Source of the DNA: Aquitalea aquatilis
GTDB lineage: Bacteria; Pseudomonadota; Gammaproteobacteria; Burkholderiales; Chromobacteriaceae
NCBI RefSeq assembly: GCF_005155025.1
Contig: NZ_CP039731.1
Coordinates: 2,728,001-2,792,000, forward strand
Length of the DNA: 64,000 nucleotides
Direction: 5' to 3'
Shown: positions 20,513 to 36,767 of the stretch, piece by piece
Layout of the letters: each line of letters opens with the position of its first letter
Numbering within the stretch: position 1 is the first letter of the stretch
The notes under the pieces: model-generated
Database searches by the model: none
What the model was told of the DNA's origin: nothing
The model's input: the letters and a program-made list of their open reading frames with translations, nothing else
Translations under genes and position numbers: made by a program

Positions 20513-21205
20513 ATGAAAAAGATCTTGATGGTGGTAAGCAGTTTTGAAAAATACCCGCAAAGCGCCAGGGCCTGTGGGCTATGGCTGGGGGAGGCCGTCC
20601 ATTTTGTCAGTCGGGTAGAGGCTGCGCGCTATACCGTGGACATCGTCAGTCCGCGTGGTGGTTACACGCCGATAGATCCGCTCAGCCTGGCATTGGCCGA
20701 CGAGCTGGATTGGGAGTGGTATCAGAACAAGAGCTTCATGAACCGGCTGGGCAGCACGCTGCAGCCCGCCGCGGTGCGTCCGCAAGACTATGCCGCCATT
20801 TATTTCGCCGGCGGCCATGGTGCGGTGTGGGATTTTCCGGACAATGCCGCGCTGCAAGCCATAGCCCGCGAGATCTACCAGCAGGGTGGCGTGGTGTGTG
20901 CGGTTTGTCACGGCGTGGCCGGCTTGCTGAATATCCGGCTGGACGATGGCAGCCTGCTGGTTGAAGGCAAGCAGATGAGCTGTTTTTCCAATACCGAGGA
21001 ACGGCTATCCGGGCTGGCCGGGCAGCTGCCTTTTCTGCCGGAAAACGAGCTGGTCAAACGGGGTGCCCGCTATCACAAGGCACCAGAACCATGGGACCCG
21101 TTCGCGCTGGTGGACCAGCGTGTGATCAGCGGTCAGAACCCGGCCTCCACCGCACGGGTGGCCGAATTACTGCTGGAGGCATTGCGCACACACTCATGGC
21201 CGTGA
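20513..21205 (+). CDS. DJ-1/PfpI-family protein (Hsp31/glyoxalase III-like)
   Basis: 230 residues. Nucleophile elbow AVCHGVAGL with C132 and H133, plus conserved E27 in CGLWLGEAVHF; the combination is characteristic of the HchA-like branch of DJ-1 proteins, which detoxify methylglyoxal or act as chaperones. YFAGGHGAVWDFP (98-110) is also typical. Start at 20513 behind AAGGA; the frame stays open upstream across the control region without a start. Divergent from an AraC regulator and followed by a small monooxygenase gene, possibly an aldehyde/quinone stress unit. Confidence 0.88.
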   Translation: MKKILMVVSSFEKYPQSARACGLWLGEAVHFVSRVEAARYTVDIVSPRGGYTPIDPLSLALADELDWEWYQNKSFMNRLGSTLQPAAVRPQDYAAIYFAGGHGAVWDFPDNAALQAIAREIYQQGGVVCAVCHGVAGLLNIRLDDGSLLVEGKQMSCFSNTEERLSGLAGQLPFLPENELVKRGARYHKAPEPWDPFALVDQRVISGQNPASTARVAELLLEALRTHSWP

Positions 21206-21276
21206 CTGCACGGCCGGATCACAGCGTAAGATACGCCTGTTCCGGCCCGAGGCCGCAGTCAGCACAAGGAATCGTC

Positions 21277-21567
21277 ATGAGTGTATTCATCTTTGCCACC
21301 TTGCAATGCAAGCCGGAGTGTACTGCCGCGGTGGGTGCCGCCATGCGCGACATGCAGCAAGCCAGCCGGCAGGAGGCTGGCTGCCAGCAATACCAGGTAT
21401 TGCAGCCGGCGGATCAGCCCGATGTGCTGCATGTGTTCGAGGCTTATCAGGATATGGCGGCGGTCGAGGCGCATCGGGCCGCCGCGCATTATCTGGCTTA
21501 CCGCGAGTGGGTGGCGGACAAGCTGGCCGCACCGGTTGAGGTAAAACTGCTGCAGCCCTTGGACTGA
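21277..21567 (+). CDS. Antibiotic-biosynthesis-monooxygenase-fold protein (YgiN-like)
   Basis: 96 residues, a single ABM domain: MSVFIFATLQCKPECTAAVG, ASRQEAGCQQYQVLQ, then VLHVFEAYQDMAAVEAHRAA and a C-terminal HYLAYREWVADKL. Small cofactor-free enzymes of this fold oxidise quinols or degrade haem-like compounds; exact reaction unknown. Ribosome site AAGGA 8 bases ahead. Lies 71 bases after the DJ-1-like gene on the same strand, so it may share its transcript. Confidence 0.85.
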   Translation: MSVFIFATLQCKPECTAAVGAAMRDMQQASRQEAGCQQYQVLQPADQPDVLHVFEAYQDMAAVEAHRAAAHYLAYREWVADKLAAPVEVKLLQPLD

Positions 21568-21600
21568 TACCCCCTTTTATCGCGAAAGGCTTCTGTCGAA

Positions 21601-21627
21601 ACAAGGCCCGCTGCTCGCGGGCCTTGT
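21601..21627. terminator. Stem-loop between convergent genes
   Basis: Arms ACAAGGCCCGC and GCGGGCCTTGT around TGCTC. It separates the monooxygenase gene (+) from the MFS gene (-). T-run is weak on both sides. Arm sequence resembles that of the stem-loop after ureG. Confidence 0.65.
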
Positions 21628-21649
21628 CATTGCTGTTGCGACTGCTTCC

Positions 21650-22957
21650 TCAGCGACTGGCGCGTGCTGCCGGCGGTTCTGCAATGGCTTCGATACGTCC
21701 CAGCAGGAAGACAAAGGCCAGCATGCCGATGATCAGCATCACCCCGGCGACCAGAAAGGCATTGGTAAAGGAGTGGGTGCTGCCCACGATATAGCCGGTG
21801 ACGATGGGGGCTACCGCACCCATCATATTGTTGGCGAAGTTCATGATGCCGCCCACCGTGCCGGTGCCGCCATGCGGTGCAATCAGCGAGGGCAGCGACC
21901 AGCCCACCGGTGCGGCAGCCGCCAGCCCGCTGAGCGCGATGGTGATCCAGATGATGGCGATGACCGGGTCGCTGGTGGTGGTGGCACCGAAAACCGCCAG
22001 CCCCAGCAGCATGCCGCCCAGCAACACGCCTTTGCGCACGCGGGTTTCATCGTGGCCACGGGCAATCAGGTGGTCGATCAGCCAGCCGCCTACCAGCAGG
22101 TCCGACAGGGTGGCGAATATCCACGGAATGGCGGCATAGCTGGCCGATTTCAGAATGCTCATATGCATGGTCTGCACCAGATAGCCGGGCAGCCAGGTGA
22201 GAAACAGATAGAACACATAGCCATAGGCGGCAAAGCCGATGGACAGCCCCCATACCTTGCGTTGCCGCAACAGGTAAGCCAGCATGGCCAGCGATCCGCT
22301 CTGGCCCACTCCTTCCGCTGTGGCTCCCCCCTCCACGATATGGCGGTATTCGGCGGCCGACAGCTTGCTGTCCTGGCTAGGGTCGCGATAGATCAGGGTA
22401 AAGGCGATGAAGTAAGCCACGCTGAGTAGTGCGGTCAGGCCAAAACCCCAGCGCCAGCCCAGATGCACCACGGTCAGCGCCACCAGTGGCACGCCAATCA
22501 CATTGGAAAACTTGGCCGCAGCATCGAAAACTGCCGTCGCCATGGCGCGCTCACGGCGCGGAAACCAGTAGCCGGTGGCCTTGGCGCTGACCGGAAAGCC
22601 TGGTGCCTCGGCCACACCCAGCAGGGCACGCGCCACGAAAATACCGCCAAAGCCGCCGGCACAGGCGGTCAGGGTGGAGGCCACCCCCCACAGCAATGCC
22701 CCCCAGCGGCCCACCCGGGTCACGCCAAACCGGTCCAGAATCATGCCGGTCGGAATCTGCAGTAGCGCATAGGTCCAGAAAAAGGCACTGAACAGCAGGC
22801 CCAGATCACTGTTGGACAGGTGAAATTCCTGTTGCAGCTGCGGTGCGGCCACCGACAGGCTGATGCGGTCGAAATAATTGACCAGTACGCCAATGCCCAG
22901 CAGGCCGCCTATGCGCCAGCGACGTTGCGGCATGGCCATGGTGTGTTGTGTTGTCAC
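21650..22957 (-). CDS. MFS transporter, anion:cation symporter family (probable sugar-acid uptake)
   Basis: 435 residues, twelve predicted membrane segments. The early GVLVNYFDRISLSVAAPQL is the hallmark of the ACS family (galactonate, glucarate, gluconate, hexuronate carriers). Start assigned to a GTG at 22957 because AAGGAG sits 7 bases ahead; the ATGs at 22939 and 22933 in the same frame have poorer spacing. Lies 28 bases after gntK in the same direction, so gluconate or a related sugar acid is the likely substrate; this differs from the usual GntP-type permease. Confidence 0.87.
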   Translation of the reverse strand: MTTQHTMAMPQRRWRIGGLLGIGVLVNYFDRISLSVAAPQLQQEFHLSNSDLGLLFSAFFWTYALLQIPTGMILDRFGVTRVGRWGALLWGVASTLTACAGGFGGIFVARALLGVAEAPGFPVSAKATGYWFPRRERAMATAVFDAAAKFSNVIGVPLVALTVVHLGWRWGFGLTALLSVAYFIAFTLIYRDPSQDSKLSAAEYRHIVEGGATAEGVGQSGSLAMLAYLLRQRKVWGLSIGFAAYGYVFYLFLTWLPGYLVQTMHMSILKSASYAAIPWIFATLSDLLVGGWLIDHLIARGHDETRVRKGVLLGGMLLGLAVFGATTTSDPVIAIIWITIALSGLAAAAPVGWSLPSLIAPHGGTGTVGGIMNFANNMMGAVAPIVTGYIVGSTHSFTNAFLVAGVMLIIGMLAFVFLLGRIEAIAEPPAARASR

Positions 22958-22985
22958 CTGAATTCTCCTTGGTAGGGATGTGTTG

Positions 22986-23495
22986 TTATTGGTCTTGCAC
23001 CAGCTGTTGCAGCAGCTGCTGTAACAGGCTGTCCACTGGCTGGCTGACATCACAGCGGATAAAGCTTTCATCGCCAGCGGGTTCTTCCAGATCGCGGAAC
23101 TGGCTGTCCAGCAGGGTGCCGGGCATGAAATGGGCGCTGCGGGCGGCCATGCGTTCGGCAATCAGTGCTTTGCTGCCAGCAAGATGCACAAACAGCAGCT
23201 CCGGATCGCCCCGGCGCAGCGTATCGCGGTAGCGACGCTTGAGTGCCGAGCAAGCCAGCACCATGGCTTCGCCCTGGGCCACCCCGCTGGCCAGCCGCTG
23301 TGCCAGCAGGTCCAGCCAGCTGGCCCGGTCGGCATCGGTCAGCGGGATGCCGGCCGACATGCGCGCAATATTCTGCGCCGGGTGATAGCTGTCGCCTTCG
23401 ATGTAGCTGGCATGGAGCGCATTGGCCAGAGCCAGGCCCAGGCTGCTTTTGCCACAGCCGGCCACCCCCATGACCACGATATTGGGAATTTTCAT
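22986..23495 (-). CDS. gntK: Gluconokinase GntK
   Basis: Phosphorylates gluconate to 6-phosphogluconate in the cytoplasm; 169 residues. P-loop GVAGCGKSS at residues 10-18, then EGDSYHPAQNIARMSAGIPL (33-52) with DADRASWL, and VLACSALKRRYRDTLR, all diagnostic. The ATG at 23495 overlaps a GntR-type operator, and no Shine-Dalgarno sequence precedes it. Second gene of a gntR-gntK-MFS series; the ED-pathway genes edd/eda are not in the window. Confidence 0.93.
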   Translation of the reverse strand: MKIPNIVVMGVAGCGKSSLGLALANALHASYIEGDSYHPAQNIARMSAGIPLTDADRASWLDLLAQRLASGVAQGEAMVLACSALKRRYRDTLRRGDPELLFVHLAGSKALIAERMAARSAHFMPGTLLDSQFRDLEEPAGDESFIRCDVSQPVDSLLQQLLQQLVQDQ

Positions 23496-23509
23496 GTTAG
23501 CGCTAACAT
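23494..23509. promoter_or_regulatory. GntR-type operator overlapping the gntK start
   Basis: Perfect 16-bp palindrome ATGTTAGCGCTAACAT, matching the known GntR/LacI-family gluconate operator pattern. It overlaps the gntK start codon and fills the place of its ribosome site. Confidence 0.85.
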
Positions 23510-23549
23510 ATTGCGGTGAAAGAAAACCGCCGAAGCGGTGAGTGCGAAA

Positions 23550-23563
23550 TGTTAGCGCTAACA
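23550..23563. promoter_or_regulatory. Second GntR-type operator upstream of gntK
   Basis: Perfect 14-bp palindrome TGTTAGCGCTAACA. Its centre is 55 bases from that of the first operator, about five helical turns, so the same repressor could bind both and loop the DNA. Confidence 0.85.
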
Positions 23564-23779
23564 AATTTGCGACGGCAATGTCTTTTCATGCTGCATGGCA
23601 GCAGAACATGGCCGCTTTGCCAGCGCATGCGTTGCCGGTCAGCGCACGGCTGGCGCGTCACGCAATTGGCTGTTGCTGAAAGCGTATGTGAATCAAGGGT
23701 TTGGTTTGCTGGCGTGGATGGTCTGGGGCGGTTTGCCAGCGGGGGCGCTACTGTGGGCAAGCCACCACAGCAGCTGTGC

Positions 23780-24805
23780 TCAGGTACTGCCGCGCTGTTG
23801 TAGCTGGAAGCCCAGATCCAGGCAGCGGCTGCCAGTATCGTCGTGCTGTCCCTGCAGCTGTTGCAGCAGCAGACGGGCAGCGGCTTCGCCGATGGCAAAG
23901 CGTGGGGTGGCGATGGTGCTCAGTGCCGGGGTGGTCCAGGCTGCGGCCTGCAAATCGTTGAAGCCGCCAATGGCCAGTTGTGCGGGAACAGCAATGCCGC
24001 GCTGCTGGCAACGGGCAATGGCACCGATGGCCAGGTCGTCATTGCAGCAGAATACGGCGTCGCAGTCGGGATGGGCGGCCAGCAGCTGATCGAGCATGTC
24101 CGCGCCCAACTGCATGCTGGACGGTGCCGGGTTCAGCCATTCCAGCGCCGGATCATGGCAGCCGGCAGCTGACAGTTCCAGCCGGTAGCCTTGCAGCCGC
24201 TTCAGCACCCGCTCGTCCAGCTGGGCAGCCAGATAGGCGATGCGCCGTCTGCCGCGTTGCAGCAGATGGCGGGTCATGGCGGCACCGGCTGCTTCCTGCG
24301 ACAGCCCGACACAGGGCCTGCCATCGTCACTCAGATCCATCATGTACACCGCTGGTAACTGGCGTTCCTCGACAATGCGGCTGAATGCTTCGGCCTGCTG
24401 CAGCCCGGTGACCAGCAAACCGTCCGGGCTGTGTTGCAGATAGGCGCGCAGCAGCGCCAGCTCTTCGCTGTCGCTGTAATGGGTATTGCCGATCAGCATC
24501 TGGTAGCCGGCCGGCTGCAGCACCGATTCGATGCCGGCCAGCGCGTCGATGAATACGGTATTGCTCAGCGAGGGGATCAGCACCAGTACGGTGTGCGAGC
24601 GGGCTGATGCCAGCTGGCGGGCCGAGCGGTTGGGTACATAGCCCAGTTGTTCGACCACCTGCAGGATTTTTTCACGCAGGGCCGGTGTGACCCGCTCTGG
24701 CGAGTGCAAGGCGCGGGAAACGGTAATGGCGCTGACGCCGGCAGCCAGACCGACATCATGCATGGTGACGCCGGTGCCGGAACGAAGGCGCGGTTTTCTC
24801 GACAT
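23780..24805 (-). CDS. gntR: LacI-family gluconate repressor GntR
   Basis: 341 residues. N-terminal LacI helix-turn-helix TMHDVGLAAGVSAITVSRAL (14-33) and hinge LGYVPNRSARQLASARS, then a sugar-binding domain (TVLVLIPSLSNTVFIDALAG, FCCNDDLAIGAIARCQQRGI). GntR regulators bind the palindromes seen upstream of gntK and are released by gluconate. The 284 bases between its stop and the gntK start hold those two operators and otherwise nothing recognisable, so gntK likely has its own promoter. Confidence 0.9.
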   Translation of the reverse strand: MSRKPRLRSGTGVTMHDVGLAAGVSAITVSRALHSPERVTPALREKILQVVEQLGYVPNRSARQLASARSHTVLVLIPSLSNTVFIDALAGIESVLQPAGYQMLIGNTHYSDSEELALLRAYLQHSPDGLLVTGLQQAEAFSRIVEERQLPAVYMMDLSDDGRPCVGLSQEAAGAAMTRHLLQRGRRRIAYLAAQLDERVLKRLQGYRLELSAAGCHDPALEWLNPAPSSMQLGADMLDQLLAAHPDCDAVFCCNDDLAIGAIARCQQRGIAVPAQLAIGGFNDLQAAAWTTPALSTIATPRFAIGEAAARLLLQQLQGQHDDTGSRCLDLGFQLQQRGST

Positions 24806-24901
24806 GCTCTACCTGCTGTGAAAGCCGGGCGACGCTGCCCGGTGGCGGAATTGTAACGCAGTCAGGCCCGCCCACGCTGTTTGCCGCTTGCTCTGCCCTG
24901 T

Positions 24902-24929
24902 TTGAAAATGCGGCGGCGGCGGTTATAGT
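24902..24929 (+). promoter_or_regulatory. Sigma-70-like promoter for endonuclease I gene
   Basis: TTGAAA (24902-24907) and TATAGT (24924-24929) with a 16-base spacer. The expected start point leads into AGGAG and the GTG start at 24962. Confidence 0.55.
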
Positions 24930-24961
24930 GCCCCTCCCCAAAGTACAGGAGTCGACCCGGC

Positions 24962-25846
24962 GTGATCGCACGCGGTGGTGGCACGGTAGAAATGCAAAAA
25001 CTGTTTTATGGCTTGTTGCTGCTGGCATTGTGCGGCTGCGACCGGGACGGTGGCGTCAAGCTGCCGCGTGAGGTGAAGGCGCTGGCCCAGTTGGGCGAAA
25101 CCGTGATGCGGCAGCTGGAGGGTGCCAGTGGCCAGGCGGCAGGGCCGGTGGGTGGGCAACAGGGCAAGGTGGTGCTGTCTGCGCTGGTGCGGGGTGACAA
25201 GGCGGTGGGCCATCGCGATTTTAACGGGGCCAAGCGTGTGCTGCCCAAGGTGTTTGCCGGCATGCAGGAGGATTTTTATTGCGGCTGTGCTTACGAGGGC
25301 AAGGCGGTGGACTGGTTGTCCTGCGGTTATGTGCCGCGCAAGAACCCGGAACGCGCCCGTCGCATCGAGTGGGAACACGTGGTGCCGGCCTGGGTGCTGG
25401 GCCACCAGCGCCAGTGTTGGCAGCAGGGCGGCCGCAAGAATTGCTCGAGCAATGATGAGGTTTACCGGCTGGCGGAAGGTGACCTGAACAATCTGGTGCC
25501 GGCAGTGGGCGAGGTGAATGCCGATCGCAGCAATCTGTCCTATGGTGCCTGGGCCAAACAACCGACCCGCATCTACGGCCAGTGCGGCACCGTAGTCGAT
25601 TTTGCCGGCAAGCGGGTTCAGCCGCGTGAAGAGGTGCGTGGGCGTGCGGCCCGCATCACCTTGTACATGCATCAGCGTTACGGGCTGAACATGAGCCGGC
25701 AGGACCGACAGCTGATGTGTGCCTGGGCCAGGCAATATCCGGTGGATGGCTGGGAGACACGGCGCAATGCCCGCATCGTCAGCCTGCAGGGCGAGGGTAA
25801 CTTCCTGGTCAGCCAGCCGGCGCGGCTGGCTGATGTCTGCGGCTAA
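24962..25846 (+). CDS. endA: Exported endonuclease I
   Basis: Secreted or periplasmic DNase of the EndA/Dns family; 294 residues from a GTG start. Core motif RRIEWEHVVPAWVLG (catalytic His of the beta-beta-metal site), then NDEVYRLAEGDLNNLVPAVG and EVNADRSNLSYG. N-terminus has a hydrophobic segment ending LLALCGCD, so it may be a lipoprotein. AGGAG lies 10 bases before the GTG at 24962; an internal ATG at 24992 (MQKLFYGLLLLA) lacks a ribosome site but would give a cleaner signal peptide. Several cysteines suggest disulfides outside the cytoplasm. Confidence 0.88.
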   Translation: MIARGGGTVEMQKLFYGLLLLALCGCDRDGGVKLPREVKALAQLGETVMRQLEGASGQAAGPVGGQQGKVVLSALVRGDKAVGHRDFNGAKRVLPKVFAGMQEDFYCGCAYEGKAVDWLSCGYVPRKNPERARRIEWEHVVPAWVLGHQRQCWQQGGRKNCSSNDEVYRLAEGDLNNLVPAVGEVNADRSNLSYGAWAKQPTRIYGQCGTVVDFAGKRVQPREEVRGRAARITLYMHQRYGLNMSRQDRQLMCAWARQYPVDGWETRRNARIVSLQGEGNFLVSQPARLADVCG

Positions 25847-26601: not shown

Positions 26602-27594
26602 CTAGCCGCCGTGATTGGCGTCGAAGCGCATGTTCAGTACGCCTTCCTGCACATCCAGGCAGTACTGTGACCAGCGCATGTCTGGCCACAGCAGTTCGGC
26701 GGTCAGGGTTTGCGGATGGTAGGCCGCGGTGTAGAGCGTGCCATAACCACGGCCATAGGCGGTCTGGAACAGTGGCGGCCGCAGCAGGGTACGCAGTACG
26801 TCATCGGCGCTTTCCGCCTTGCGCACGCCCTGGCTCAGCATCCATTCCCGCTCTTCCGACAAGGTGGCACGGGCATGGGCCTGCCATTCCACCCCGTGTT
26901 GATGGTTGGCTACTGCGGTGCGGCTGACTACTTCGGTGGGCCGGTCCGGGGCGACGAATACCGTTGCCCAGTGGCTGTGCTTGTCCAGCAGGCTGATGTT
27001 GTAGGTCATGTGCACCGGCAGGCGCTGCAGGATGGCCACGGCTTCTGCGGTGGTGCTGGCGGTTTCCAGCAGATAGCGCATCACCAGCGGAATACCGAAG
27101 CCCTCGCCAACGGCGGTGCGGCCACCAAAGGACAGCGAGGCCGCCAGCCCGTCCTCGTTGATGCCATCCAGCGCACCCCACAGGCAGTCGCTCATTGCCA
27201 GCACCTGGCGGCCCAGCCAGCGTGTGGACAACCAGCTGCCTTCCAGCAGGGCCGGAGCGTAGTCGTAATTGCGTGCCAGCAAGGGGCCTGCTACGCCGTA
27301 GGGATCGATCCATACCGCTTGCGAGCAGCCGGAAATATACGATGGCGGACACCATTGCGACAGAAAACGCGCTTCCAGATCGCCGCCACCGGCCAGTTCG
27401 CATAGTTGTTGATACAGCCCGGCCAGCTCGGGCATGTGCTGGCGCAGCGCCCGCCGGCCAGCCAGATACGAGGGCCGGGCACGATGGCCATCGCGCAAAA
27501 ACCATTGCTGATAAGCCGGCCAGCGCAGCTGAAACAGCCCTTGCCAGCGCGCTCCCGGCGTGTCTTCCCGGATTGCTTCGAATGTACAGCGCAT
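26602..27594 (-). CDS. C45-type Ntn acyltransferase/hydrolase
   Basis: 330 residues, related to the acyl-coenzyme A:6-aminopenicillanate acyltransferase and ceramidase-like Ntn hydrolases. These self-cleave before a cysteine that becomes the nucleophile and make or break amide bonds. The candidate is C90 in YISGCSQAV; supporting residues are R108/D111 (LLARNYDY), the GINEDGLAASLSFGG stretch and NH in AVANHQHG. ATG at 27594 leaves a 64-base gap to the ATP-grasp gene; a longer start would overlap that gene. Last gene of the nitrilase/ATP-grasp/C45 operon. Substrate unknown. Confidence 0.8.
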   Translation of the reverse strand: MRCTFEAIREDTPGARWQGLFQLRWPAYQQWFLRDGHRARPSYLAGRRALRQHMPELAGLYQQLCELAGGGDLEARFLSQWCPPSYISGCSQAVWIDPYGVAGPLLARNYDYAPALLEGSWLSTRWLGRQVLAMSDCLWGALDGINEDGLAASLSFGGRTAVGEGFGIPLVMRYLLETASTTAEAVAILQRLPVHMTYNISLLDKHSHWATVFVAPDRPTEVVSRTAVANHQHGVEWQAHARATLSEEREWMLSQGVRKAESADDVLRTLLRPPLFQTAYGRGYGTLYTAAYHPQTLTAELLWPDMRWSQYCLDVQEGVLNMRFDANHGG

Positions 27595-27658
27595 GTGTCT
27601 CACTAGGTTGATGGCCGCCACCCTCTTGCCGACGGCGGCCAGGGTGGCGCTGAGCGGA

Positions 27659-29239
27659 TTATAGGATCTTGAAGGCACCAGGGGCGGGGACTTGCTCTTC
27701 GTGCACGGCCATGATGGGCTTGGCGGCATAGTATTTCTTGATGCCGGTGATCCAGTTTCGTGCGCGCTCGTTGAGGGCGAAGTCGTCTGTCATGGAGCGG
27801 CCACGGGTGATCAGGATGCCCAGGTCGGCACCTTCATAACGGTAGTCACCCGGCCCGCTGATGCGCAGGAAGAAAGCCTCGTTTTCCGATTCGATGTCCT
27901 GACGCTTGTAGTCGAAGCGGTGGTAGGACACCGAGCCATCGTCTGCCATGCGATAGATGCCGGTGGCTGGAGCATGGGTGATGATGTCCACATTGTTGGC
28001 CGTATGCTTGATCACCAGCTGGCTCCAGCTGTCGATGAAGGCCGGATTGGCCCAGCGCGCGTTGAGTTCCTCCACGTCCAGTTCGAACTCGATGCCGGAA
28101 AATTCCAGCAGATGGAACAGGAAGAGCGGGACATCGGCATAGGCGAAGGCGGCGTGGTTGGTCATCGGGCTGGCACCGCAGATACGCGGATTCAGTTCGC
28201 CCAGATAGACCTCGTCGGTGTCCTTGTCGATGAGGAAGTCCAGGTCAAAGTAGCCGCGATAGCCCTCGGCCATCAGTTGGTTACCGAAGCGGTAAGCCAT
28301 GTCGCGTGCCTTGGCACGGACTTCCTCGCTGAAGGCACCGGGGAAGATTTCATTGCCGCACCAGCCGCCGCGATAGGGGGTCAGTTCTGCCTCGCCGACG
28401 ACCTCGGTCAGCAAGGGGCCGACCAGCGTGCCGCTGCGGGTGGCACAGGCTTCCAGCGTGGCGCCCCGGCAGTTGATGCGCTTCATGATCTTGACTTCCG
28501 GGTCCTGGATGATTTCCTCGGCATGCCGGTCGAAGTCGCTTTCGCTGGAGATGAAGAAGGTGGTATGGCCGGAATCGCCAAAGGCAGTCTGCACCACCAG
28601 CTGTTCGCCCAGACCATGTGCTGCGGCAATCTCACGCAGATGGGCATAGCTGTCCACCTTGCACAGGGCATTGGGGACCGATGGCACACCGGCCTTGTTG
28701 CCGATGCGCACGGTTTCCATCTTGTTGTCACAGCGTTCACGCAAGGCGGCGCTGGGGAACCACACTTCAATGCCCAGCTCCTCGCACAGCCGTTCGGTTT
28801 CGGCATCGAACATCAGAAACACCGCCACCGGGCGGCCGCCGGCGCGCTCGACGTAATCCACCACATCCTTGTGCTGCAGCAGATAGTTGTTGATGTCCTC
28901 GATGGACTGGAATTCTTCATGCGGGAGTTGCGGCGGCACGAAGACATTGGGATGGCGGCCGTCGAAGCAGTCGATGTAGTTGATGTATTTGAAGCGGTTG
29001 ACCCACTGGTCTATGCCCAGCAGGTTGAAGTTGGTGGCGCTGATGAAGTAGATCGGCCGTTCATTGCGGTGAAACAGCAGACGCAGATCGGAAATATTGC
29101 TGACTTTTTGCATGGGGTGCTCTCCCTGAGCGGCTCGCGGTGGGGGTTTCGGTGTCTGCTGCTGAGCTGCTTGCAGCCAGGCCAGCAGCCATTGGCGGCA
29201 GTAGCGCAGCCAGCCTGATACCAGGGTGTGATCTTTCAT
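27659..29239 (-). CDS. ATP-grasp ligase (biotin-carboxylase-like)
   Basis: 526 residues from the ATG at 29239, whose ATGA overlaps the amidase stop. A second start at 29113 (MQKVSNISDLR), with GGGAG ahead, would give 484 residues. ATP-grasp features in order: CDNKMETVRIGNKAGVPSVP, nucleotide loop TAFGDSGHTTFFIS, and the metal/ATP signature LDFLIDKDTD then GELNPRICGASPMTN. Such enzymes activate a carboxylate as acyl phosphate and join it to an amine or thiol. There is no biotin domain and no carboxyltransferase nearby, so a peptide- or amide-forming ligase is more likely than a carboxylase. The first 42 residues are Gln/Pro-rich and may not be translated. Confidence 0.85.
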   Translation of the reverse strand: MKDHTLVSGWLRYCRQWLLAWLQAAQQQTPKPPPRAAQGEHPMQKVSNISDLRLLFHRNERPIYFISATNFNLLGIDQWVNRFKYINYIDCFDGRHPNVFVPPQLPHEEFQSIEDINNYLLQHKDVVDYVERAGGRPVAVFLMFDAETERLCEELGIEVWFPSAALRERCDNKMETVRIGNKAGVPSVPNALCKVDSYAHLREIAAAHGLGEQLVVQTAFGDSGHTTFFISSESDFDRHAEEIIQDPEVKIMKRINCRGATLEACATRSGTLVGPLLTEVVGEAELTPYRGGWCGNEIFPGAFSEEVRAKARDMAYRFGNQLMAEGYRGYFDLDFLIDKDTDEVYLGELNPRICGASPMTNHAAFAYADVPLFLFHLLEFSGIEFELDVEELNARWANPAFIDSWSQLVIKHTANNVDIITHAPATGIYRMADDGSVSYHRFDYKRQDIESENEAFFLRISGPGDYRYEGADLGILITRGRSMTDDFALNERARNWITGIKKYYAAKPIMAVHEEQVPAPGAFKIL

Positions 29240-30177
29240 TCCTGGCTCTGGCTGGCGGCCAGTGCGTCGCTGTCGGCCTTGATTTCCGCCATCGGGCCGC
29301 CCGGGCCGGACAATTCACCCTGATGGTGGTCTTCCGGTTTGGTCAGTGGGCCCAGCTGGTATAGATAGCTGTCCAGGCCGCTGTCGCGCTGGTACACCGG
29401 GAAGTCGCAGCGCCGGTCGCGGAAGCTCTTGAGCGGCTGGCCCAGGCCACGCAGGCCGCGTTCGCGTTCACGTCTGACCTTGTCGAAGTCGATTTCCACC
29501 GGGATGATTTCCGGGCCATTGCCCGCCTGATGCAGCACGTAGCCGGCAGGATCCACCAGGATGGAGCGGCCGACACCGCCATCACCCACCCCGTTGATGT
29601 CGAGGAAATACACCTGGTTGGTGACGGCGGAGGCACGGGCGATGGCCAGTTCCACCTCGCGGTCTATGGTGTCGGTCATGGTGGGGTGCAGGATCACCTC
29701 TGCGCCCATGGCGGCCAGCGTGCGGGTGGTTTCCGGGAACCACATGTCGTAGCAGATGGAGATGCCGATACGCCCGGCATCGGGCACGTCGAACACCACG
29801 AACTGGTCGCCGGCGGTAATGCCTTTTTCGTAGGGCAGGAAGGGAAACAGCTTGCTGAAGCGGGCGATGACCTCGCCTTGCGGATTGATCACCGGGCTGG
29901 TGTTGAAAACATGGCCATTGCGCAGTTCGAACAAGGAACCCGGAATCAGCCAGATGCCGTGCTGGGCCGCGATCTCGCACAGCCGCTGCTCGGCATCGCC
30001 CGGCATGGCCTCCGCTTTCAGCGGGCTGGGGCCGTAAGCGGCCAGCTCGGAAAACAGCACCATGTCGACCCAGGGAAAGCGGTGTTTGACATGGGCGACG
30101 TAATGCCCCATGCGCGTGATGTTTTCTTCGAAGGCGGAAACCGACATCTGGATGCCGGCAATGGCGAAGCGTTTCAA
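29236..30177 (-). CDS. Carbon-nitrogen hydrolase (nitrilase superfamily amidase)
   Basis: 313 residues from a TTG start with GGGAGA just ahead; the only longer start, a GTG at 30228, lacks a ribosome site. The catalytic triad is complete: E44 (LFSELAAYGP), K109 (RFSKLFPFLPYEKG) and C142 (ISICYDMWFPE). Family members cleave amides, N-carbamoyl groups or nitriles, or transfer ammonia from glutamine. C-terminal 40 residues are polar and disordered. First gene of the three-gene operon, translationally coupled to the ATP-grasp ligase. Branch suggests an aliphatic amidase-like enzyme; substrate unknown. Confidence 0.85.
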   Translation of the reverse strand: MKRFAIAGIQMSVSAFEENITRMGHYVAHVKHRFPWVDMVLFSELAAYGPSPLKAEAMPGDAEQRLCEIAAQHGIWLIPGSLFELRNGHVFNTSPVINPQGEVIARFSKLFPFLPYEKGITAGDQFVVFDVPDAGRIGISICYDMWFPETTRTLAAMGAEVILHPTMTDTIDREVELAIARASAVTNQVYFLDINGVGDGGVGRSILVDPAGYVLHQAGNGPEIIPVEIDFDKVRRERERGLRGLGQPLKSFRDRRCDFPVYQRDSGLDSYLYQLGPLTKPEDHHQGELSGPGGPMAEIKADSDALAASQSQE

Positions 30178-30496
30178 GGTCTCTCCCGTATGGATGCACG
30201 CGCTGCCGTGTGGCCAGGCGTGAAGCACAGGCCAGGCGTGCTGATGCAGCGCTTGGCGATGTTGGTGGGAGAGCAGTCTACAAATGTGGGAAGGCGGCCA
30301 GAAATAGCCGATTTCTGATTCACTAGCCGGGAAATGGACTATCCATTTGGCTGGAAATTTCCAGGCTATGCCGGATGGGAGAGTGGGGTCGTCGTAAAAT
30401 GCATTTTGCGGCGCGCAGCCTTGGTTTTGGCGTGCTGTCTGCCGGTCATGTGCGGTGGCCGCAGCCGCCCGCAGGGCGGATCATCCGCCTGCGGCT
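30178..30496. other. Intergenic region with stacked inverted repeats and a direct repeat
   Basis: 319 bases between kdpE and the amidase gene. It holds GAAAT/ATTTC (30301-30315), AAATGGA/TCCATTT (30332-30348) and the 14-bp palindrome CTGGAAATTTCCAG (30351-30364). Nearer the amidase are two copies of GGCCAGGCGTG (30212-30222, 30230-30240). A GC-rich hairpin abuts the kdpE stop. Probably the promoter/operator zone of the amidase operon; no -35/-10 pair assigned. Confidence 0.5.
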
Positions 30497-31192
30497 TCAG
30501 CTTTCCAGCAGGCGGTAGCCGACGCCGGTTTCGGTCAGGATGTGCTGCGGCATGGCCGGATTGTCTTCCAGTTTTTGCCGTAGATGACCCATGTAGACGC
30601 GCAGGTACTGGTTGTGTTCGGAGAAGGATGGCCCCCATACCGCCAGCAGCAGCTCGCGGTGGGTGATGACCTTGCCGGCATTGCGGATCAGCGTGGTCAG
30701 CAGGCGATATTCGATGGGCGTGAGGTGCACCATGGCTTCGCCCTTGTGCACGGTGCGCGCCACCAGATCAACCTTGATATCGCCAAAGGCAAAAGTCTGG
30801 GCCGGGGCTGCGCTGCCATTGCCACGCCGCCGCAGCAATACGCGGATGCGCGCCATGCATTCGGCCACGCCAAAGGGCTTGGTCAGGTAGTCGTCGGCGC
30901 CGGCGTCCAGGGCCAGCACTTTTTCGGCTTCCTGGGTGCGGGCAGACAGCACCAGGATGGGCAGGTCGGTCCATTCGCGCAGTTGACGGATGACATCGAT
31001 GCCGTTCATGTCCGGCAGGCCCAGGTCCAGTATCACCATGTCCGGTTTGCGGGTGGCCACTTCGATCAGGCCCTGCTTGCCGTTTTCCGCCTGGTGCACC
31101 ACCCAGTTGTCGCCATCCAGCGCCGAGGCCAGAAAGCGGCGGATCGGTTTTTCGTCCTCGATGACCACCAGTTTGACTGGGTTGTCGCTCAT
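30497..31192 (-). CDS. kdpE: Kdp response regulator KdpE
   Basis: OmpR-type regulator that switches on kdpFABC; 231 residues. Receiver domain with acidic pocket (VIEDEKPIRRFL) and phosphoacceptor Asp in MVILDLGLPDMNG near residue 54; DNA-binding winged helix in the C-terminal half (HLTPIEYRLLTTLIRNAGKV, then YLRVYMGHLRQKLE). ATG at 31192 overlaps the kdpD stop by four bases; the open frame further upstream lies inside kdpD. Last gene of the kdp operon. Confidence 0.95.
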   Translation of the reverse strand: MSDNPVKLVVIEDEKPIRRFLASALDGDNWVVHQAENGKQGLIEVATRKPDMVILDLGLPDMNGIDVIRQLREWTDLPILVLSARTQEAEKVLALDAGADDYLTKPFGVAECMARIRVLLRRRGNGSAAPAQTFAFGDIKVDLVARTVHKGEAMVHLTPIEYRLLTTLIRNAGKVITHRELLLAVWGPSFSEHNQYLRVYMGHLRQKLEDNPAMPQHILTETGVGYRLLES

Positions 31193-33885
31193 GGTTTGAT
31201 CTCCTCTTCGCCGGGCAGGGCCGGCATGGCGCGCACCGGCAGGGTGAAGCTGAAAGCTGCACCATGTGGCCGGAGATTGGCCGCCTGGATGGTGCCGCCG
31301 TGGGCTTCGACAATGCTGCGACAGATGGCCAGCCCCAGTCCCACGCCCGGCGTGGTGGATTCGCTGTTGCCACGGCTGAATTTGTCGAACAGTTTTTGTT
31401 CCTGGCCAGGTGGTAGGCCCGGCCCGTCGTCCTGCACGCAAACACGCATTGTAGCGCCCTCACAGCTGGCACTGAGCGTGATATGACTGCCGGGCAGAGT
31501 ATATTTGGCGGCATTTTCCAGCAAGTTCACCAATACCCGTTCGATCAGCACCGCGTCGTATTCCAGTACCGGCAGCCCGCTGGGCAGTTCGATCTGTAGT
31601 TGGTGCTGCTGCAGGCTGCGCTGGCAGGCGCGCACCGCGCTGCCCACCACGTCGTCCAGCAGCTGCCATTCCCGGTTCAGCTGTACGCCGGACTGCAGCT
31701 TGGCCATGTCCAGCAGATTGGTGACCAGATGGTTCATGCGCAGCGATTCTTCCTGGATCGACTGGGCGATGTCGGCCTGCTTGGCGGCATCGACCTGGCC
31801 AGTGGCCAGGATGCTGGACAAGCCCACCAGGGTGGTGAGCGGGGTGCGCAGATCGTGCGAAATCACCGCCAGCACGCTATTGCGCAGGCGTTCGGACTCC
31901 ATGGCGACGATGGCATCCTGGGCCACTTCGACATAATGCACGCGCTCCAGCGCCAGGGCGATCTGGGCGGCGCAGGTTTCCAGCAGGCGTTGCTGTTCGG
32001 GCAGGAAAACCTGATCGAGCTGCTCGGGCAGTACGGCCAGCACGCCGCGATTGCGCATGGGTGCTTTCAGCGGCAGATACAGCATGGTATTGGCCGGCAG
32101 GGTCTGGGTGCCGAGGCCGGCAGGCTGCTGCTTGTCATACACCCACTGCGCCACGCCCGGATCGGCCTGGGCATGGCTGTCGTTTTCAGCGCGCAGTTCT
32201 TCGTTGCTATTGGGGGTGAACAGCACGATGCTGGCATTGAATAGTGGCTGAAGGCGGCTGACTGCAGTATCGATGATCTGGTTGGCCGTCAGCGCACCGG
32301 CCAGCTCGCGCCCCAGATCATACAGGGCTCGGGTGCGGCGCTCGCGATAGGTGGCAATGGTGGCCTCGAAGCGCAGCCGTGCGGCCAGCTGGCTGATGAT
32401 GAGGGCGACGGCAAACATCACGGCAAAGGTCAGCAGGTATTGGGTATCCGATACCGAAAACGACATGCGCGGCGGCACGAAAAAGAAATCGAAGGTGGCC
32501 ACCGCCAGCAAGGACGCCAGTACCCCGGGGCCACGGCCAAAGCGCACGGCCACCAGCACCACCCCCAGCAGATACACCATCACCACATTGGATGGTTCGA
32601 AATACGGCGTGAGCAGGCTGGCGAGGCCGGTGGTCAGCAAGCAGGCCAGCAGGGCTGCCAGATAGCCGTGACGCTGTTGCTGGCGGCTGGCCTCGCCAAA
32701 CAGCAGGCTGTTGAAGCCGTCGCGTGTCTGTGGCTGTTCATCTTCCAGTTCGTGGGCCACCACATAGACATCGACATCATTGGCCTGTAACGACAGCTGC
32801 TCCAGCAATGGCCGTCGCCACAGTCGTTGCAGCTTGCTGCCGGCGGATTTGCCCACCACCAGCTTGGACACATTGCGGCTGCGGGCATAGGCCAGCAGGG
32901 TGGCGGCCAGATCGCTGCCACCCAGCACAGTGGTTTCCGCGCCCAGCTCCTGCGCCAGCTTCAGGCCTTTCATGATGCGGCTGCGCTTGGTTTCCGACAG
33001 GCCTTGCAGTTCGGGTGTTTCCACGAAGACGGCAATCCAGTCGGCATCCAGGCTGGCGGCCAGCCGTTTGCCGCTGCGCACCAGCTTTTCGGTACCGGGA
33101 CCATGCCCGACGCAGATCAGCAGCCGTTCGCGGGCATGCCACACCGGCTTGATCGACTGGTCGGCGCGGTAGGCGCGCATTTGCGCATCCACGCGGTCGG
33201 CGGTGCGGCGCAAGGCCAGTTCGCGCAAGGCCAGCAGATTGCCCTTGCGGAAGAAGTTTTTCACCGCACGCTCGGCCTGATGGGCCATATACACCTTGCC
33301 GGCAGCCAGGCGGGCCAGCAGCTCGTCCGGTGGCAGGTCGACCAGCGATACTTCTTCTGCCTGATCAAAGACGTGATCGGGCAGGGTTTCGCGCACCACG
33401 ATGCCGGTGATCTGGCCCACCACATCATTGAGACTTTCCAGGTGCTGCACATTCAGCGTGGTATAGACATCGATGCCGGCGGCCAGCAGTTCTTCCACGT
33501 CCTGCCAGCGCTTGCTGTGGCGCGAACCGGGGACATTGGAGTGGGCGAATTCATCCATCAGGATCAGTTGCGGCTGGCGTGCCAGCGCGCTGTCCAGATC
33601 AAACTCGGCCAGGCTGCGGCCCTTGTATGCGATCTGGGTGGGTGGCAGTACTTTCAGCTCTTGCAGCTGGGCTTCGGTTTCCTTGCGGCCATGGGTTTCC
33701 ACCACGCCCACCAGCACCTTGCAGCCTTCTTGCTGGCGCACGCGGGCGGCGCTGAGCATGGCATAGGTCTTGCCTACGCCGGCACAGGCACCAAAGAAAA
33801 TTTTCAGGCGGCCGCGCTGTGCAGCCAGTTCTCCCTGCTTCAGTTCATCCAGCAGGGCATCGGGGTCCGGGCGGATATCCGTCAT
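31189..33885 (-). CDS. kdpD: Osmosensitive potassium sensor kinase KdpD
   Basis: Membrane histidine kinase/phosphatase that responds to low potassium and osmotic stress; 898 residues, full length. N-terminal KdpD domain with Walker A GACAGVGKTYAML (about 32-44), then a universal-stress-like domain, four clustered membrane segments (about 400-500), a GAF-like region and the kinase core with phosphoacceptor His in VISHDLRTPLTT (about 670) and ATP site in DDGPGLPPGQ. Starts after a 118-base gap from kdpC that contains a strong hairpin. Confidence 0.96.
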   Translation of the reverse strand: MTDIRPDPDALLDELKQGELAAQRGRLKIFFGACAGVGKTYAMLSAARVRQQEGCKVLVGVVETHGRKETEAQLQELKVLPPTQIAYKGRSLAEFDLDSALARQPQLILMDEFAHSNVPGSRHSKRWQDVEELLAAGIDVYTTLNVQHLESLNDVVGQITGIVVRETLPDHVFDQAEEVSLVDLPPDELLARLAAGKVYMAHQAERAVKNFFRKGNLLALRELALRRTADRVDAQMRAYRADQSIKPVWHARERLLICVGHGPGTEKLVRSGKRLAASLDADWIAVFVETPELQGLSETKRSRIMKGLKLAQELGAETTVLGGSDLAATLLAYARSRNVSKLVVGKSAGSKLQRLWRRPLLEQLSLQANDVDVYVVAHELEDEQPQTRDGFNSLLFGEASRQQQRHGYLAALLACLLTTGLASLLTPYFEPSNVVMVYLLGVVLVAVRFGRGPGVLASLLAVATFDFFFVPPRMSFSVSDTQYLLTFAVMFAVALIISQLAARLRFEATIATYRERRTRALYDLGRELAGALTANQIIDTAVSRLQPLFNASIVLFTPNSNEELRAENDSHAQADPGVAQWVYDKQQPAGLGTQTLPANTMLYLPLKAPMRNRGVLAVLPEQLDQVFLPEQQRLLETCAAQIALALERVHYVEVAQDAIVAMESERLRNSVLAVISHDLRTPLTTLVGLSSILATGQVDAAKQADIAQSIQEESLRMNHLVTNLLDMAKLQSGVQLNREWQLLDDVVGSAVRACQRSLQQHQLQIELPSGLPVLEYDAVLIERVLVNLLENAAKYTLPGSHITLSASCEGATMRVCVQDDGPGLPPGQEQKLFDKFSRGNSESTTPGVGLGLAICRSIVEAHGGTIQAANLRPHGAAFSFTLPVRAMPALPGEEEIKP

Positions 33886-33957
33886 GTTCAGTCCGTCTAT
33901 GGCGGTACAGCATCATGCCCTGCCGGTGAAGGGCAGGGCGTCAGGGCGTCATGGGGG

Positions 33958-33983
33958 GCGCATCCGGCCGGGGCCGGATGCGC
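33958..33983 (-). promoter_or_regulatory. REP-like hairpin between kdpC and kdpD
   Basis: Near-perfect inverted repeat, arms GCGCATCCGGC and GCCGGATGCGC with a 4-base loop and no T-run. Similar in look to enterobacterial REP palindromes, but only one copy is seen here. It may protect upstream kdpFABC mRNA or reduce readthrough into kdpDE. Confidence 0.6.
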
Positions 33984-34003
33984 AGATCAAACGGCTGGCG
34001 GGT

Positions 34004-34576
34004 TTACTTGACCGCATCCAGCGCCAGATTCAGTTCCAGCACATTGACCCGGGGTTCACCCAACAGGCCAAAGGTTTCGCCAATGATGTGATCATCCACC
34101 AGTTGGTGCAGGCGAGCCAGCGGCATGCTGCGTGCGCGGGCGACACGGTCCAGCTGGTAATAGGCGGCAGCGACCGATATGTCCGGGTCCAGGCCACTGG
34201 CCGAGGCAGTCACCAGATCAACCGGTACGGTGGCCGTTTGCGTGGGGTGAGCCTGGCGCAGGTGGTCGAGATTAGCCTTTACCGCATCCAGCTGGGCCTT
34301 GTTGGTGGGGCCGAGGTTGGAGCCGCCGGAGCTGCCGGCATTGTAGGCCATGGGGCTGGTGGCTGATGGCCGGCCCCAGAAATACTTGTCAGCGCTAAAG
34401 TTCTGACCGATCAGGCGGGAGCCGATGATCTGGCCATTTTTTTCGATCAGGCTGCCATTGGCCTGCTGCGGAAACAGCGCCTGGGCCAGGGCCGTGGTCA
34501 GCAGTGGATAGGCCAGGCCGGTCAGCAAGGACAGGGTGGCAAACAGCAGCAGTGCGGGTCGCAAAGTCTTGAGCAT
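34004..34576 (-). CDS. kdpC: Potassium-transporting ATPase subunit KdpC
   Basis: Single-span subunit that stabilises the KdpFABC pump; 190 residues. One N-terminal membrane segment ([20 protein letters not shown]), then a periplasmic domain with [20 protein letters not shown] (about 50-69) and the C-terminal [16 protein letters not shown], all family hallmarks. It follows kdpB by 28 bases. Confidence 0.96.
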
Positions 34577-34604
34577 GATGAGTTCCTTGTTCGGGCGGGT
34601 CGGC

Positions 34605-36728
34605 TTACACCAGGCCCAGGCTGCCCAGCAGCATGTCGATCAGCTTGATGCCGGCAAAGGGCAGCAGCAGGCCGCCCAGGCCGTAGATCAGCAAATTGCC
34701 GCGCAGCAGTTCGGCTGCGCTTTTGGCGTGGTATTTCACCCCTTTGAGGGCCAGCGGAATCAGCACCACGATGATCAGCGCATTGAACACCACTGCCGAC
34801 ATGATGGCCGAGGCCGGGCTGTTCAGGCCCATCACGTTCAGCGCATTGAGCTGCGGATAGGTGCTGGCAAAGGCTGCCGGGATGATGGCGAAATACTTGG
34901 CCACATCGTTGGCGATGGAGAAGGTGGTGAGCGAGCCACGGGTCATCAGCATCTGTTTGCCGATTTCCACGATTTCGATCAGCTTGGTGGGGTTGGAGTC
35001 CAGATCCACCATATTGCCGGCCTCTTTTGCCGCCTGGGTGCCGGTGTTCATGGCCACGGCCACGTCGGCCTGGGCCAGCGCCGGTGCATCGTTGGTGCCG
35101 TCGCCGGTCATGGCGACCAGCTTGCCTTCGGCCTGATGGCTACGGATCAGCTTGAGTTTGGCTTCCGGCGTGGCTTCGGCCAGGAAGTCGTCCACGCCGG
35201 CTTCGGCGGCAATGGCGGCGGCGGTCAGCGGGTTGTCGCCGGTGATCATGATGGTCTTGATGCCCATCTGGCGCAGCTCGGCAAAGCGCTCCTTGATGCC
35301 GCCCTTGACGATGTCCTTCAGCTCGATCACCCCCAGTGCGCGATTGCCTTCGGCCACCAGCAGTGGAGTCGAGCCACGGCGGGCCACTTCATCGGCGCTC
35401 TTGCCCAGCGCGTCGGGGAAGACACCGCCTTGCTCGGCGATATGACGGCGAATGGCGTCGGTGGCGCCCTTGCGGATCTGCCGGCCATCGTAGTCGATGC
35501 CGCTCATGCGGGTTTGCGCGGTAAACGGGATGAAGGTGGCTTCGTGGCTGGCCAGTGCACGTTCGCGCAGGGCGAATTTCTGCTTGGCCAGTACCACGAT
35601 GCTGCGGCCTTCCGGCGTTTCGTCGGCCAGCGAGGCCAGCTGTGCGGCATCGGCCAGTTGCTGTTCGCTGACGCCCGGAGCCGGGATGAACAGCGCAGCC
35701 TGACGGTTGCCCAGGGTGATGGTGCCGGTCTTGTCCAGCAGCAGCACGTCCACGTCGCCTGCCGCTTCCACGGCGCGGCCGGAAGTGGCGATGACATTGG
35801 CCCCCATCATGCGGCTCATGCCAGCCACGCCAATGGCGGACAGCAAGCCACCGATGGTGGTGGGAATCAGGCAGACCAGCAGTGCCACCAGGGTGGTGAT
35901 GCTGATGGGCAAGCCAGCCTTGGCCGCATCCACGCTGAACAGCGAGTAGGGTAGCAGGGTGACGGTGACGATCAGGAACACGATGGTCAGTGCCACCAGC
36001 AAGATGGTCAGGGCGATTTCATTCGGGGTTTTCTGGCGTTTGGCGCCTTCCACCATGGCAATCATGCGGTCGAGGAAGGTTTCCCCCGGATTGGTGGTGA
36101 TTTTCACCACGATCCAGTCCGACAGCACGCGGGTGCCGCCGGTGACCGAGGAAAAGTCACCGCCGGATTCGCGAATCACCGGGGCCGATTCGCCAGTGAT
36201 GGCCGATTCGTCCACCGAGGCCACGCCATCGATGACTTCGCCGTCCACCGGGATGACATCGCCGGCTTCCACCAGCACGATGTCGCCCTTTTTCAGGCTG
36301 TGGCCATCCACGATGGTGATACCGGCTTCGCGGCGCGGGCCGGACAGCTTCTTGGCCACCACGTTTTTCTTGGCCGAGCGCAGGCTGGCGGCCTGGGCCT
36401 TGCTGCGGCCCTCGGCCAGTGCTTCGGCAAAGTTGGCAAACAGCACGGTAAACCATAGCCACAGCGCGATGGCCAGAATGAAGCCGGGTGCGGCCTCGCC
36501 CTTGCCGGCCAGCGCCTGCAGCCACAGCGCGGTGGTGAGGATGCTGCCTACATACACCACAAACATCACCGGATTGCGCCATTGGGTACGTGGCGACAGT
36601 TTCCTGAAAGAGTCGATGATGGCCGGTTTGATCAGGGCCGGGTCAAACATGCCCTTGCCCGGTTTGCTGTGCTGGCTGGCAGCGCTGTTGGCGGCAGCCG
36701 ACACAGTGGAATGATTGCGATCGTTCAT
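34605..36728 (-). CDS. kdpB: Potassium-transporting P-type ATPase subunit KdpB
   Basis: Catalytic P-type ATPase of the high-affinity pump; 707 residues. Phosphorylated Asp in [13 protein letters not shown] (about 310), actuator loop ITGESAPV, nucleotide-domain KGAT and hinge [20 protein letters not shown]. The N-terminal 30 residues are polar. Gene order A-B-C matches the canonical operon. Confidence 0.97.
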
Positions 36729-36767
36729 ATTGTTTTCCTTGATCCTGTTGCGTATCCACGCTCAGGA

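Follow-up and report, generated by a model that had tools for sequence, protein, structure and literature searches.

In a 64,000-nucleotide stretch of the Aquitalea aquatilis genome (contig NZ_CP039731.1, positions 2,728,001 to 2,792,000; hereafter the window), three neighbouring minus-strand genes encode a C-N hydrolase of the nitrilase superfamily, an ATP-grasp protein and a C45-type N-terminal-nucleophile enzyme. The module to which they belong is real; its conservation reaches far past close kin, and it is linked to the catabolism of amines and amino acids. The module is apparently widespread and uncharacterized: the gene set is not described in the open-licence literature searched, in agreement with an earlier reading of the window from its letters alone (the sequence-only reading), which had not recognized it as a characterized pathway. 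With a probability of about 0.35, our tentative proposal is a protect–transform–deprotect module that acts on short diamino compounds and has these three genes as its core; it would resemble the Puu pathway in its logic but would be built from unrelated enzymes. The genes are arranged as follows, and Pfam and NCBIfam profile matches bear out their earlier placement on one strand.

29236..30177, minus strand: C-N hydrolase (nitrilase superfamily) with E44/K109/C142; TTG start at 30177 behind GGGAGAG
27659..29113, minus strand: ATP-grasp protein of the NF005096 family; likely ATG start at 29113, with a longer open reading frame (ORF) opening at 29239
26602..27594, minus strand: C45 (AAT-type) N-terminal-nucleophile amidohydrolase/acyltransferase with nucleophile Cys90; ATG start at 27594

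Conservation of the core

Our comparison covers the best 80 of at least 483 confirmed loci, which come from Alpha-, Beta- and Gammaproteobacteria and in which genes were counted by tblastn; TAXI, TRAP and nicotinamide adenine dinucleotide (NAD)-glutamate dehydrogenase genes were recognized by eye, not by family search. One of the loci, L043, comes from Acinetobacter baylyi. Fifty-one of the 80 have at least 9 kb on both sides (the long-flank loci), and the other 29 fall short of 9 kb on one side. A C45 gene is present at 79 of the 80, the exception being L051, where the stretch ends just past the ATP-grasp match. At 77 loci it lies directly downstream of the ATP-grasp gene, on the same strand and within 500 bases, and at two others it is 568 and 1131 bases away. 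It still adjoins the ATP-grasp gene downstream in the distant loci L135-L138, where ATP-grasp identity is only 42-48%, so that the co-occurrence on which the sequence-only reading had staked its idea of a joint pathway extends over three proteobacterial classes and beyond close relatives. Of the three genes, that of the C-N hydrolase varies most in its presence: it is found at 47 of the 51 long-flank loci (on the same strand in 35, on the other in 12), is missing from four, and was not seen in L135-L138.

Among individual genomes, the distribution is scattered. Named Aquitalea proteins share 91-97% identity with the window's ATP-grasp protein, the gene for which occurs in eight of nine other genomes of the genus. 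Of 27 genomes of other genera of the same family, 23 lacked any match and four had only weak, partial ones (E about 1e-4). NF005096-family ATP-grasp proteins (E up to 1e-60) were found in 10 of 369 genomes of the class and 11 of 398 of the phylum, the window's own genome included at the centre of the search, and in 11 of 385 genomes of the class of G670, again counting the centre genome; none of 14 control genomes had one. This pattern suggests transfer.

The proteins of the module

The ATP-grasp protein has no Pfam match at 1e-3, yet it exceeds the cut-off of the NCBIfam family NF005096, named ‘biotin carboxylase’, with 797 versus 684 bits. Its C-terminal E-x-N-P-R metal/phosphate motif (E306, N308 and R310, invariant in 56 of 56 ATP-grasp sequences) aligns with the same motif of carboxylases, to which there are weak profile matches (best E 7e-4). 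The carboxylase signature NPRIQVEH, however, aligns with NPRICGAS, and the lysine of the glycine-rich loop with a glutamine (Q175); this glutamine and the NPR..G..S frame are invariant in the 56 sequences. No biotin or carrier domain is reported by Pfam or NCBIfam in any of the three proteins, as the sequence-only reading had stated. Likewise, there is no biotin carrier or carboxyltransferase partner in the three proteins or in the identified recurrent neighbour clusters, the scope of a search that was not extended genome-wide. On the grounds of these motifs, we reject biotin carboxylation as the function. The possibility raised earlier, that the gene belongs to a known carboxylase family with a described role, thus holds for the family name only: the carboxylase signature is absent and no description of a role was found in the open-licence literature. 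‘Biotin carboxylase’ is probably a misnomer for NF005096.

The C45 enzyme matches the C45/AAT family PF03417 at 103 bits and exceeds the NF040521 cut-off (161 versus 85 bits). The nucleophile predicted by the sequence-only reading, C90 counted from the ATG at 27594, is invariant in all 43 aligned C45 proteins, and Gly89 precedes it in at least 90% of them. An alpha-aminoadipyl amide is the substrate of penicillin acyltransferase-type C45 enzymes, and the fly enzyme Tan cleaves beta-alanyl amides. One locus has a further C45 paralogue close to the first (L142:12088-13392), diverged (44%) and extended at its C-terminus.

The C-N hydrolase matches PF00795 at 115 bits, and its E44/K109/C142, numbered from the TTG at 30177 and already described as intact, are invariant in 36 of 36 aligned C-N hydrolases. 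It reaches no NCBIfam equivalog cut-off (AguB, formamidase, aliphatic amidase and others), AguB coming closest with 70 of 410 bits. In the scheme proposed below it would be an accessory amidase.

At 35 of the 51 long-flank loci, the core is linked to a pyridoxal phosphate (PLP) enzyme about 940 residues long. One representative belongs to PF01276 and stays below every ornithine, lysine and arginine decarboxylase cut-off; its closest solved relative, with 1109 bits over nearly the whole length, is PDB 9n0n, a ‘probable amino acid decarboxylase’. In a 2026 review, the related entry 9N0O is given as Rv2531c, with its activity not clarified (PMC12910592). The side-chain pocket of this family is altered. 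Glu526 of lysine decarboxylase has been proposed, from docking, as the site for the distal amine of the substrate (PMC5607190). In an alignment with the inducible lysine decarboxylase 9e0m (numbering from the printed coordinates), Glu526 is replaced by asparagine in the module enzyme, and Ser373, six residues past the PLP lysine Lys367, by arginine. Both changes occur in 92 of 92 scored family members, many of them closely related; of 97 rows, the five unscored ones are four fragments and L135, which lacks the motif. Both canonical decarboxylases of the window's genome have glutamate and serine at these positions. The substrate side chain would thus seem not to be a free cation, and the pocket fits a masked, uncharged one. 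Decarboxylation of free arginine, lysine or ornithine by this family is unlikely, since the canonical acidic residue is an asparagine here. The window's genome itself has no full-length relative of the Rv2531c type, as only partial matches to its two canonical decarboxylases were found (best pieces 37-39%).

Operon contexts

The sequence-only reading had considered the three genes alone as a possible pathway. This view is not supported, as further enzymes are added at 43 of the 51 long-flank loci and the C-N hydrolase comes and goes. These additions form two middle sets: the PLP decarboxylase at 35 loci, and a set of racemase, D-amino acid dehydrogenase (DadA), AruI and aldehyde dehydrogenase at eight. 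No locus has both and eight have neither; we give no p-value for this exclusivity because the loci are mutually related.

In one family of the same class, where 40 of 151 genomes carry the ATP-grasp gene, the module is part of an ectoine context. Copies linked to doe genes occur in halophiles. The 14 of the 40 loci that were read all show, on one strand and in this order, doeB, an Lrp-type gene, the C-N hydrolase, ATP-grasp and C45 genes, the PLP decarboxylase, doeC and doeD. A doeA gene was seen in 13 of them, the L166 stretch ending inside doeB. Two loci carry insertions: about 7 kb ahead of the C-N hydrolase in L166, and about 3 kb between the decarboxylase and doeC in L174. At L148, DoeA and DoeB exceed their curated cut-offs; doeC and doeD are named there by place and family only, the former reaching 608 of 646 bits to the succinate-semialdehyde dehydrogenase model and the latter being an aminotransferase above the PRK07482 cut-off.

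The eight loci with the AruI set are all from Rhizobiales-type bacteria. The set consists of an Orr-type racemase with an arginase-like tail, a D-amino acid dehydrogenase (as annotated), AruI and an aldehyde dehydrogenase; representatives score 416 of 480 bits for the racemase (NF040742) and 739 versus 500 bits for AruI, which is above cut-off. An agmatinase-like ureohydrolase is present at six of the eight. At L060:13888-15729 and other AruI-type loci, the ornithine-racemase-like protein is fused to an arginase-family domain, the metal-binding motifs of which look degenerate by eye. In L139, from a genome of the window's class, an AruI-type set and the C-N hydrolase stand in one run. The ATP-grasp genes of AruI-type loci, 11 of the 42 rows, are not monophyletic (approximately unbiased test, p 1.46e-5). 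This test used a quick tree of 42 chosen rows from which the very long branches L134, L135 and L136 were excluded, and its 11 rows include L068, a short contig on which the racemase, DadA and aldehyde dehydrogenase are seen and AruI is not. Given this lack of monophyly, the AruI set appears to have joined the core at least twice.

Decarboxylase loci often have a context of gamma-aminobutyrate (GABA) metabolism, with GabT at 22 of the 35 and GabD at 16; representatives of both pass their curated cut-offs. GabT occurs at only two of the eight AruI loci, as expected if only the decarboxylase route needs an aminotransferase. Decarboxylase loci also encode a Glu/Asp-type binding protein (five of 35; representative below cut-off, 283 of 375 bits), a dicarboxylate-type symporter (six of 35; likewise below, 362 of 513 bits) or a TAXI protein (nine of 35), and a large glutamate dehydrogenase, identified by eye, lies next to the module at three of the 80 loci. 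A PuuR-like regulator is found at 15 of the 80 (representative below cut-off, 143 of 211 bits), a PuuC-like aldehyde dehydrogenase at two (below cut-off at L065, 655 of 850 bits), and an agmatinase above cut-off near one module (L142). The loci with neither middle set are five from Aquitalea plus L039, L058 and L080; a PuuC-like dehydrogenase is encoded at one of these eight, and L058 resembles L017 and L065 in its neighbour clusters.

A possible masking scheme

We favour a sequence of masking, decarboxylation or deamination, oxidation and unmasking, because it is the simplest scheme that uses nearly every gene in the ectoine and ornithine/arginine contexts. The ATP-grasp enzyme would use ATP to join a dicarboxylic acyl group, most likely gamma-glutamyl or succinyl, to the omega-amine of a diamino acid or diamine, for which ornithine- or arginine-derived compounds and diaminobutyrate are candidates. 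Masking would keep the keto acid or aldehyde that forms later from cyclizing. The masked compound would then be handled by the host operon's own set, which is seen in the contexts above and whose substrate we infer. One such set begins with the PLP decarboxylase of the Rv2531c family, after which a class III aminotransferase (GabT or DoeD) and an aldehyde dehydrogenase (GabD or DoeC) would act; the other combines the racemase with D-amino acid dehydrogenase, the 2-oxoacid decarboxylase AruI and an aldehyde dehydrogenase. In the described AruI route, as the family name indicates, the substrate is an N5-substituted 2-oxo acid, which makes an N5-acyl analogue plausible. Finally, the C45 enzyme would hydrolyse the amide and free GABA or beta-alanine, a step with precedent in its family. 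Aquitalea has only the core at this place, and the middle step would need enzymes encoded elsewhere in its genome.

In more general terms, we see somewhat less than an even chance that a hitherto undescribed, ATP-dependent amide-masking system of ATP-grasp ligase and unmasking C45 hydrolase is an exchangeable core common to ectoine, ornithine/arginine and GABA catabolism in Proteobacteria, and that the Rv2531c family decarboxylates masked, amide-bearing rather than free basic amino acids. The sequence-only reading had imagined a ligate-and-deprotect scheme; the catabolic contexts support this part of it, as does the removal of a succinyl group in vitro by the C45 enzyme AzsT (PMC10445470), and the chemistry itself we infer.

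Several points weigh against this scheme. The C-N hydrolase has no step assigned in it. Usually one aminotransferase and one aldehyde dehydrogenase are linked to the module, whereas the conversion of putrescine to succinate needs each of these steps twice. No basic-amino-acid transporter was recognized in decarboxylase-type loci, for which no dedicated search was made, and the Glu/Asp-type binding protein, dicarboxylate symporter, TAXI protein and glutamate dehydrogenase point to glutamate. Moreover, the known doe route turns diaminobutyrate into aspartate without the module. Lastly, the window's genome already encodes, elsewhere, two PF07722 hydrolases of the PuuD family (235 and 188 bits) and two PuuC-like dehydrogenases (59% and 57%), which leaves a role of the core as a Puu substitute in Aquitalea unsupported.

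Alternative explanations

The foremost alternative, which we judge unlikely although it accounts well for part of the evidence, is that glutamate (or aspartate) itself is decarboxylated in masked form. The ATP-grasp enzyme would join the glutamate side-chain carboxylate to an amine X, the Rv2531c-family enzyme would convert gamma-Glu-X to GABA-X, C45 would free GABA, and GabT and GabD would lead on to succinate. Such a route requires no amine oxidase and agrees with the asparagine and arginine in the decarboxylase pocket, and the occurrence of the Glu/Asp-type binding protein, dicarboxylate-type symporter, GabT and GabD in the same stretches, with glutamate dehydrogenase adjoining the module at the three loci noted above, forms a GABA/glutamate context that fits it better than omega-amine masking. 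However, it would cost ATP where an ordinary glutamate decarboxylase needs none, and it leaves unexplained both the ectoine operon and the AruI/racemase sets, whose association with the core arose on at least two occasions. More doubtful is a cycle of end-product conjugation: GABA or beta-alanine from the middle enzymes would be joined by the ATP-grasp enzyme to an amine or an amino acid, and the conjugate would be split again by C45, with storage, detoxification or export as the purpose. GABA could be the end product of either middle set, the core stands without either set at eight of the 51 long-flank loci, five of them in Aquitalea, and an outer-membrane-barrel-like gene (by eye) follows C45 in L135, L136 and L138, three of the five most distant loci (L134-L138). 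Within catabolic operons, however, a make-and-break pair would be futile, and GabT and GabD at the same loci consume GABA directly.

Two further explanations reassign one of the enzymes. In a glutamine-dependent amide synthetase, the C-N hydrolase would act as a glutaminase feeding ammonia to the ATP-grasp enzyme, and C45 would act on the primary amide. The C-N hydrolase lies within the stretch at 47 of the 51 long-flank loci, and NAD synthetase, to which a nitrilase-like glutaminase is fused, offers a precedent (PMC3376133); its absence from four of the 51, its position on the other strand at 12 of the 47 and its not being seen in L135-L138 nevertheless make this improbable. We give even less credence to the ATP-grasp protein being a real biotin carboxylase or carbamoyl-forming enzyme with unrelated neighbours. 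The NF005096 score and the weak carboxylase matches would suit such an enzyme, but the NPRICGAS motif, the glutamine in the glycine-rich loop, the lack of biotin or carrier domains and the nearly constant C45 partner argue against it.

Gene starts and flanks of the Aquitalea locus

The ATP-grasp enzyme most likely starts at 29113, to judge from conservation. The similarity of most relatives outside the genus begins only at the equivalent of this position, 42 codons inside the longer ORF. In all seven aligned Aquitalea sequences, an invariant, Shine-Dalgarno-like GGGAGA precedes the ATG, and the region from this motif through the first codons is nearly invariant, whereas the preceding 120 bases are variable. 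The sequence-only reading had the gene translationally coupled to the C-N hydrolase by an ATGA. This ATGA does exist, at 29239-29236, although 29113 is the likelier start. The stretch from 29239 to 29113 is poorly conserved, although the ATGA is kept in seven of seven Aquitalea sequences and the indels in between are multiples of three; coupling is thus doubtful rather than disproved. The start region of the C-N hydrolase is likewise nearly invariant in the seven sequences, and the bases preceding its TTG carry indels. The C45 gene probably starts at 27594 rather than at the first ATG at 27729.

Upstream of the operon lie kdp potassium-transport genes (window 31189-38576), including KdpD (31189-33885) and KdpB (34605-36728), so that the earlier statement that no transporter is adjacent was not quite right. 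The two groups are separated by an apparently noncoding stretch that holds a palindrome:

30299..30317, strand unassigned: perfect inverted repeat CAGAAAT-N5-ATTTCTG ahead of the operon, a possible operator

As this separating stretch has its own palindrome, the three genes are unlikely to be part of a kdp operon. The repeat occurs once in the 4.36 Mb genome (reversed-pattern control, 0). It is exact in seven of eight other same-genus search loci (not L008) and in five of six named Aquitalea loci, a set overlapping the former (not L033, where one arm differs), and was not found in exact form in any fetched locus outside Aquitalea. A consensus scan yielded a single promoter-like site, against 0.9 expected, and six terminator-like sites, against 3.3 expected (standard deviation 2.1); none is clearly useful. 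In the downstream flank (window 20114-25735) are a GntR (gluconate-type) regulator and a major facilitator superfamily transporter. The searched flanks, which also hold an ORF with a DJ-1/PfpI domain, are ordinary.

Variant loci

Some distant and plasmid-borne loci have features of their own. At L136:3483-5657, a urea-transporter domain is fused to an M23 peptidase domain just upstream of the distant decarboxylase–ATP-grasp–C45 set, and L137 has a 723-residue ORF at the matching position. The genes after C45 at L135:5666-6778, L136:11765-12736 and L138:2042-4831 resemble outer-membrane beta-barrels by eye; the first post-C45 gene of these three loci has no Pfam match at 1e-5, and TPR proteins lie near the barrel-like genes in L135 (by eye) and L138. 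In these relatives, passage of a substrate or product through the outer membrane is conceivable. Among Rhizobium plasmids, L021 carries the decarboxylase–ATP-grasp–C45 set and a dipeptide-type ATP-binding cassette transporter beside nifHDKEN, and L019 and L022 have the same combination near a Nif11-type cluster for a ribosomally synthesized and post-translationally modified peptide, with a Glu-type dehydrogenase. On some rhizobial plasmids, the module looks decayed: at L023:10001-14400, C45 is cut short beside transposases, and the Sinorhizobium medicae plasmid matches H46-H52 are pieces of ATP-grasp genes (36% query coverage).

Comparison with known systems

The masking scheme, if true, would give bacterial amine catabolism a second type of protecting-group chemistry, unrelated to the first, and ectoine degradation an extra branch. 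It would also give a function to the NF005096 family and suggest a substrate class for the PLP decarboxylases of the Rv2531c family. Rv2531c itself (PDB 9n0n/9n0o/9n0p) belongs to the family of the module decarboxylase and has the same Asn and Arg changes; a close member of this family is not encoded in the window's genome. For the unmasking step, the nearest parallel is AzsT from azaserine biosynthesis, a C45 enzyme that removes a protecting acyl group within a multi-step pathway (PMC10445470). The same paper places its substrate, a carrier-protein-bound hydrazine, in a Streptomyces biosynthetic cluster and records that another group credits the desuccinylation step to a different enzyme; its likeness to the module C45 is one of family membership.

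The ectoine operon, doeA-doeB-Lrp-doeC-doeD, has the module embedded in it at all 14 loci read. The described doe route needs none of the four module enzymes. The AruI route of arginine shares AruI, D-amino acid dehydrogenase and aldehyde dehydrogenase with eight of the 51 loci, which in contrast add an Orr-type racemase fused to an arginase-like domain. As described, this route does not use the ATP-grasp–C45 core.

The closest parallel in logic is the gamma-glutamylputrescine (Puu) pathway of E. coli, in which ATP-dependent acylation is followed by oxidation and by hydrolysis to GABA. At some loci the module is accompanied by a PuuR-like regulator and by a PuuC-like dehydrogenase, both below curated cut-offs; a PuuB-type oxidase was not recognized near it, where no search was aimed at PuuB. 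The ligase and the hydrolase differ between the two systems: the module has an ATP-grasp enzyme (NF005096) where Puu has the glutamine-synthetase-type PuuA, and a C45 enzyme (NF040521) in place of PuuD, which is of the class-I amidotransferase type.

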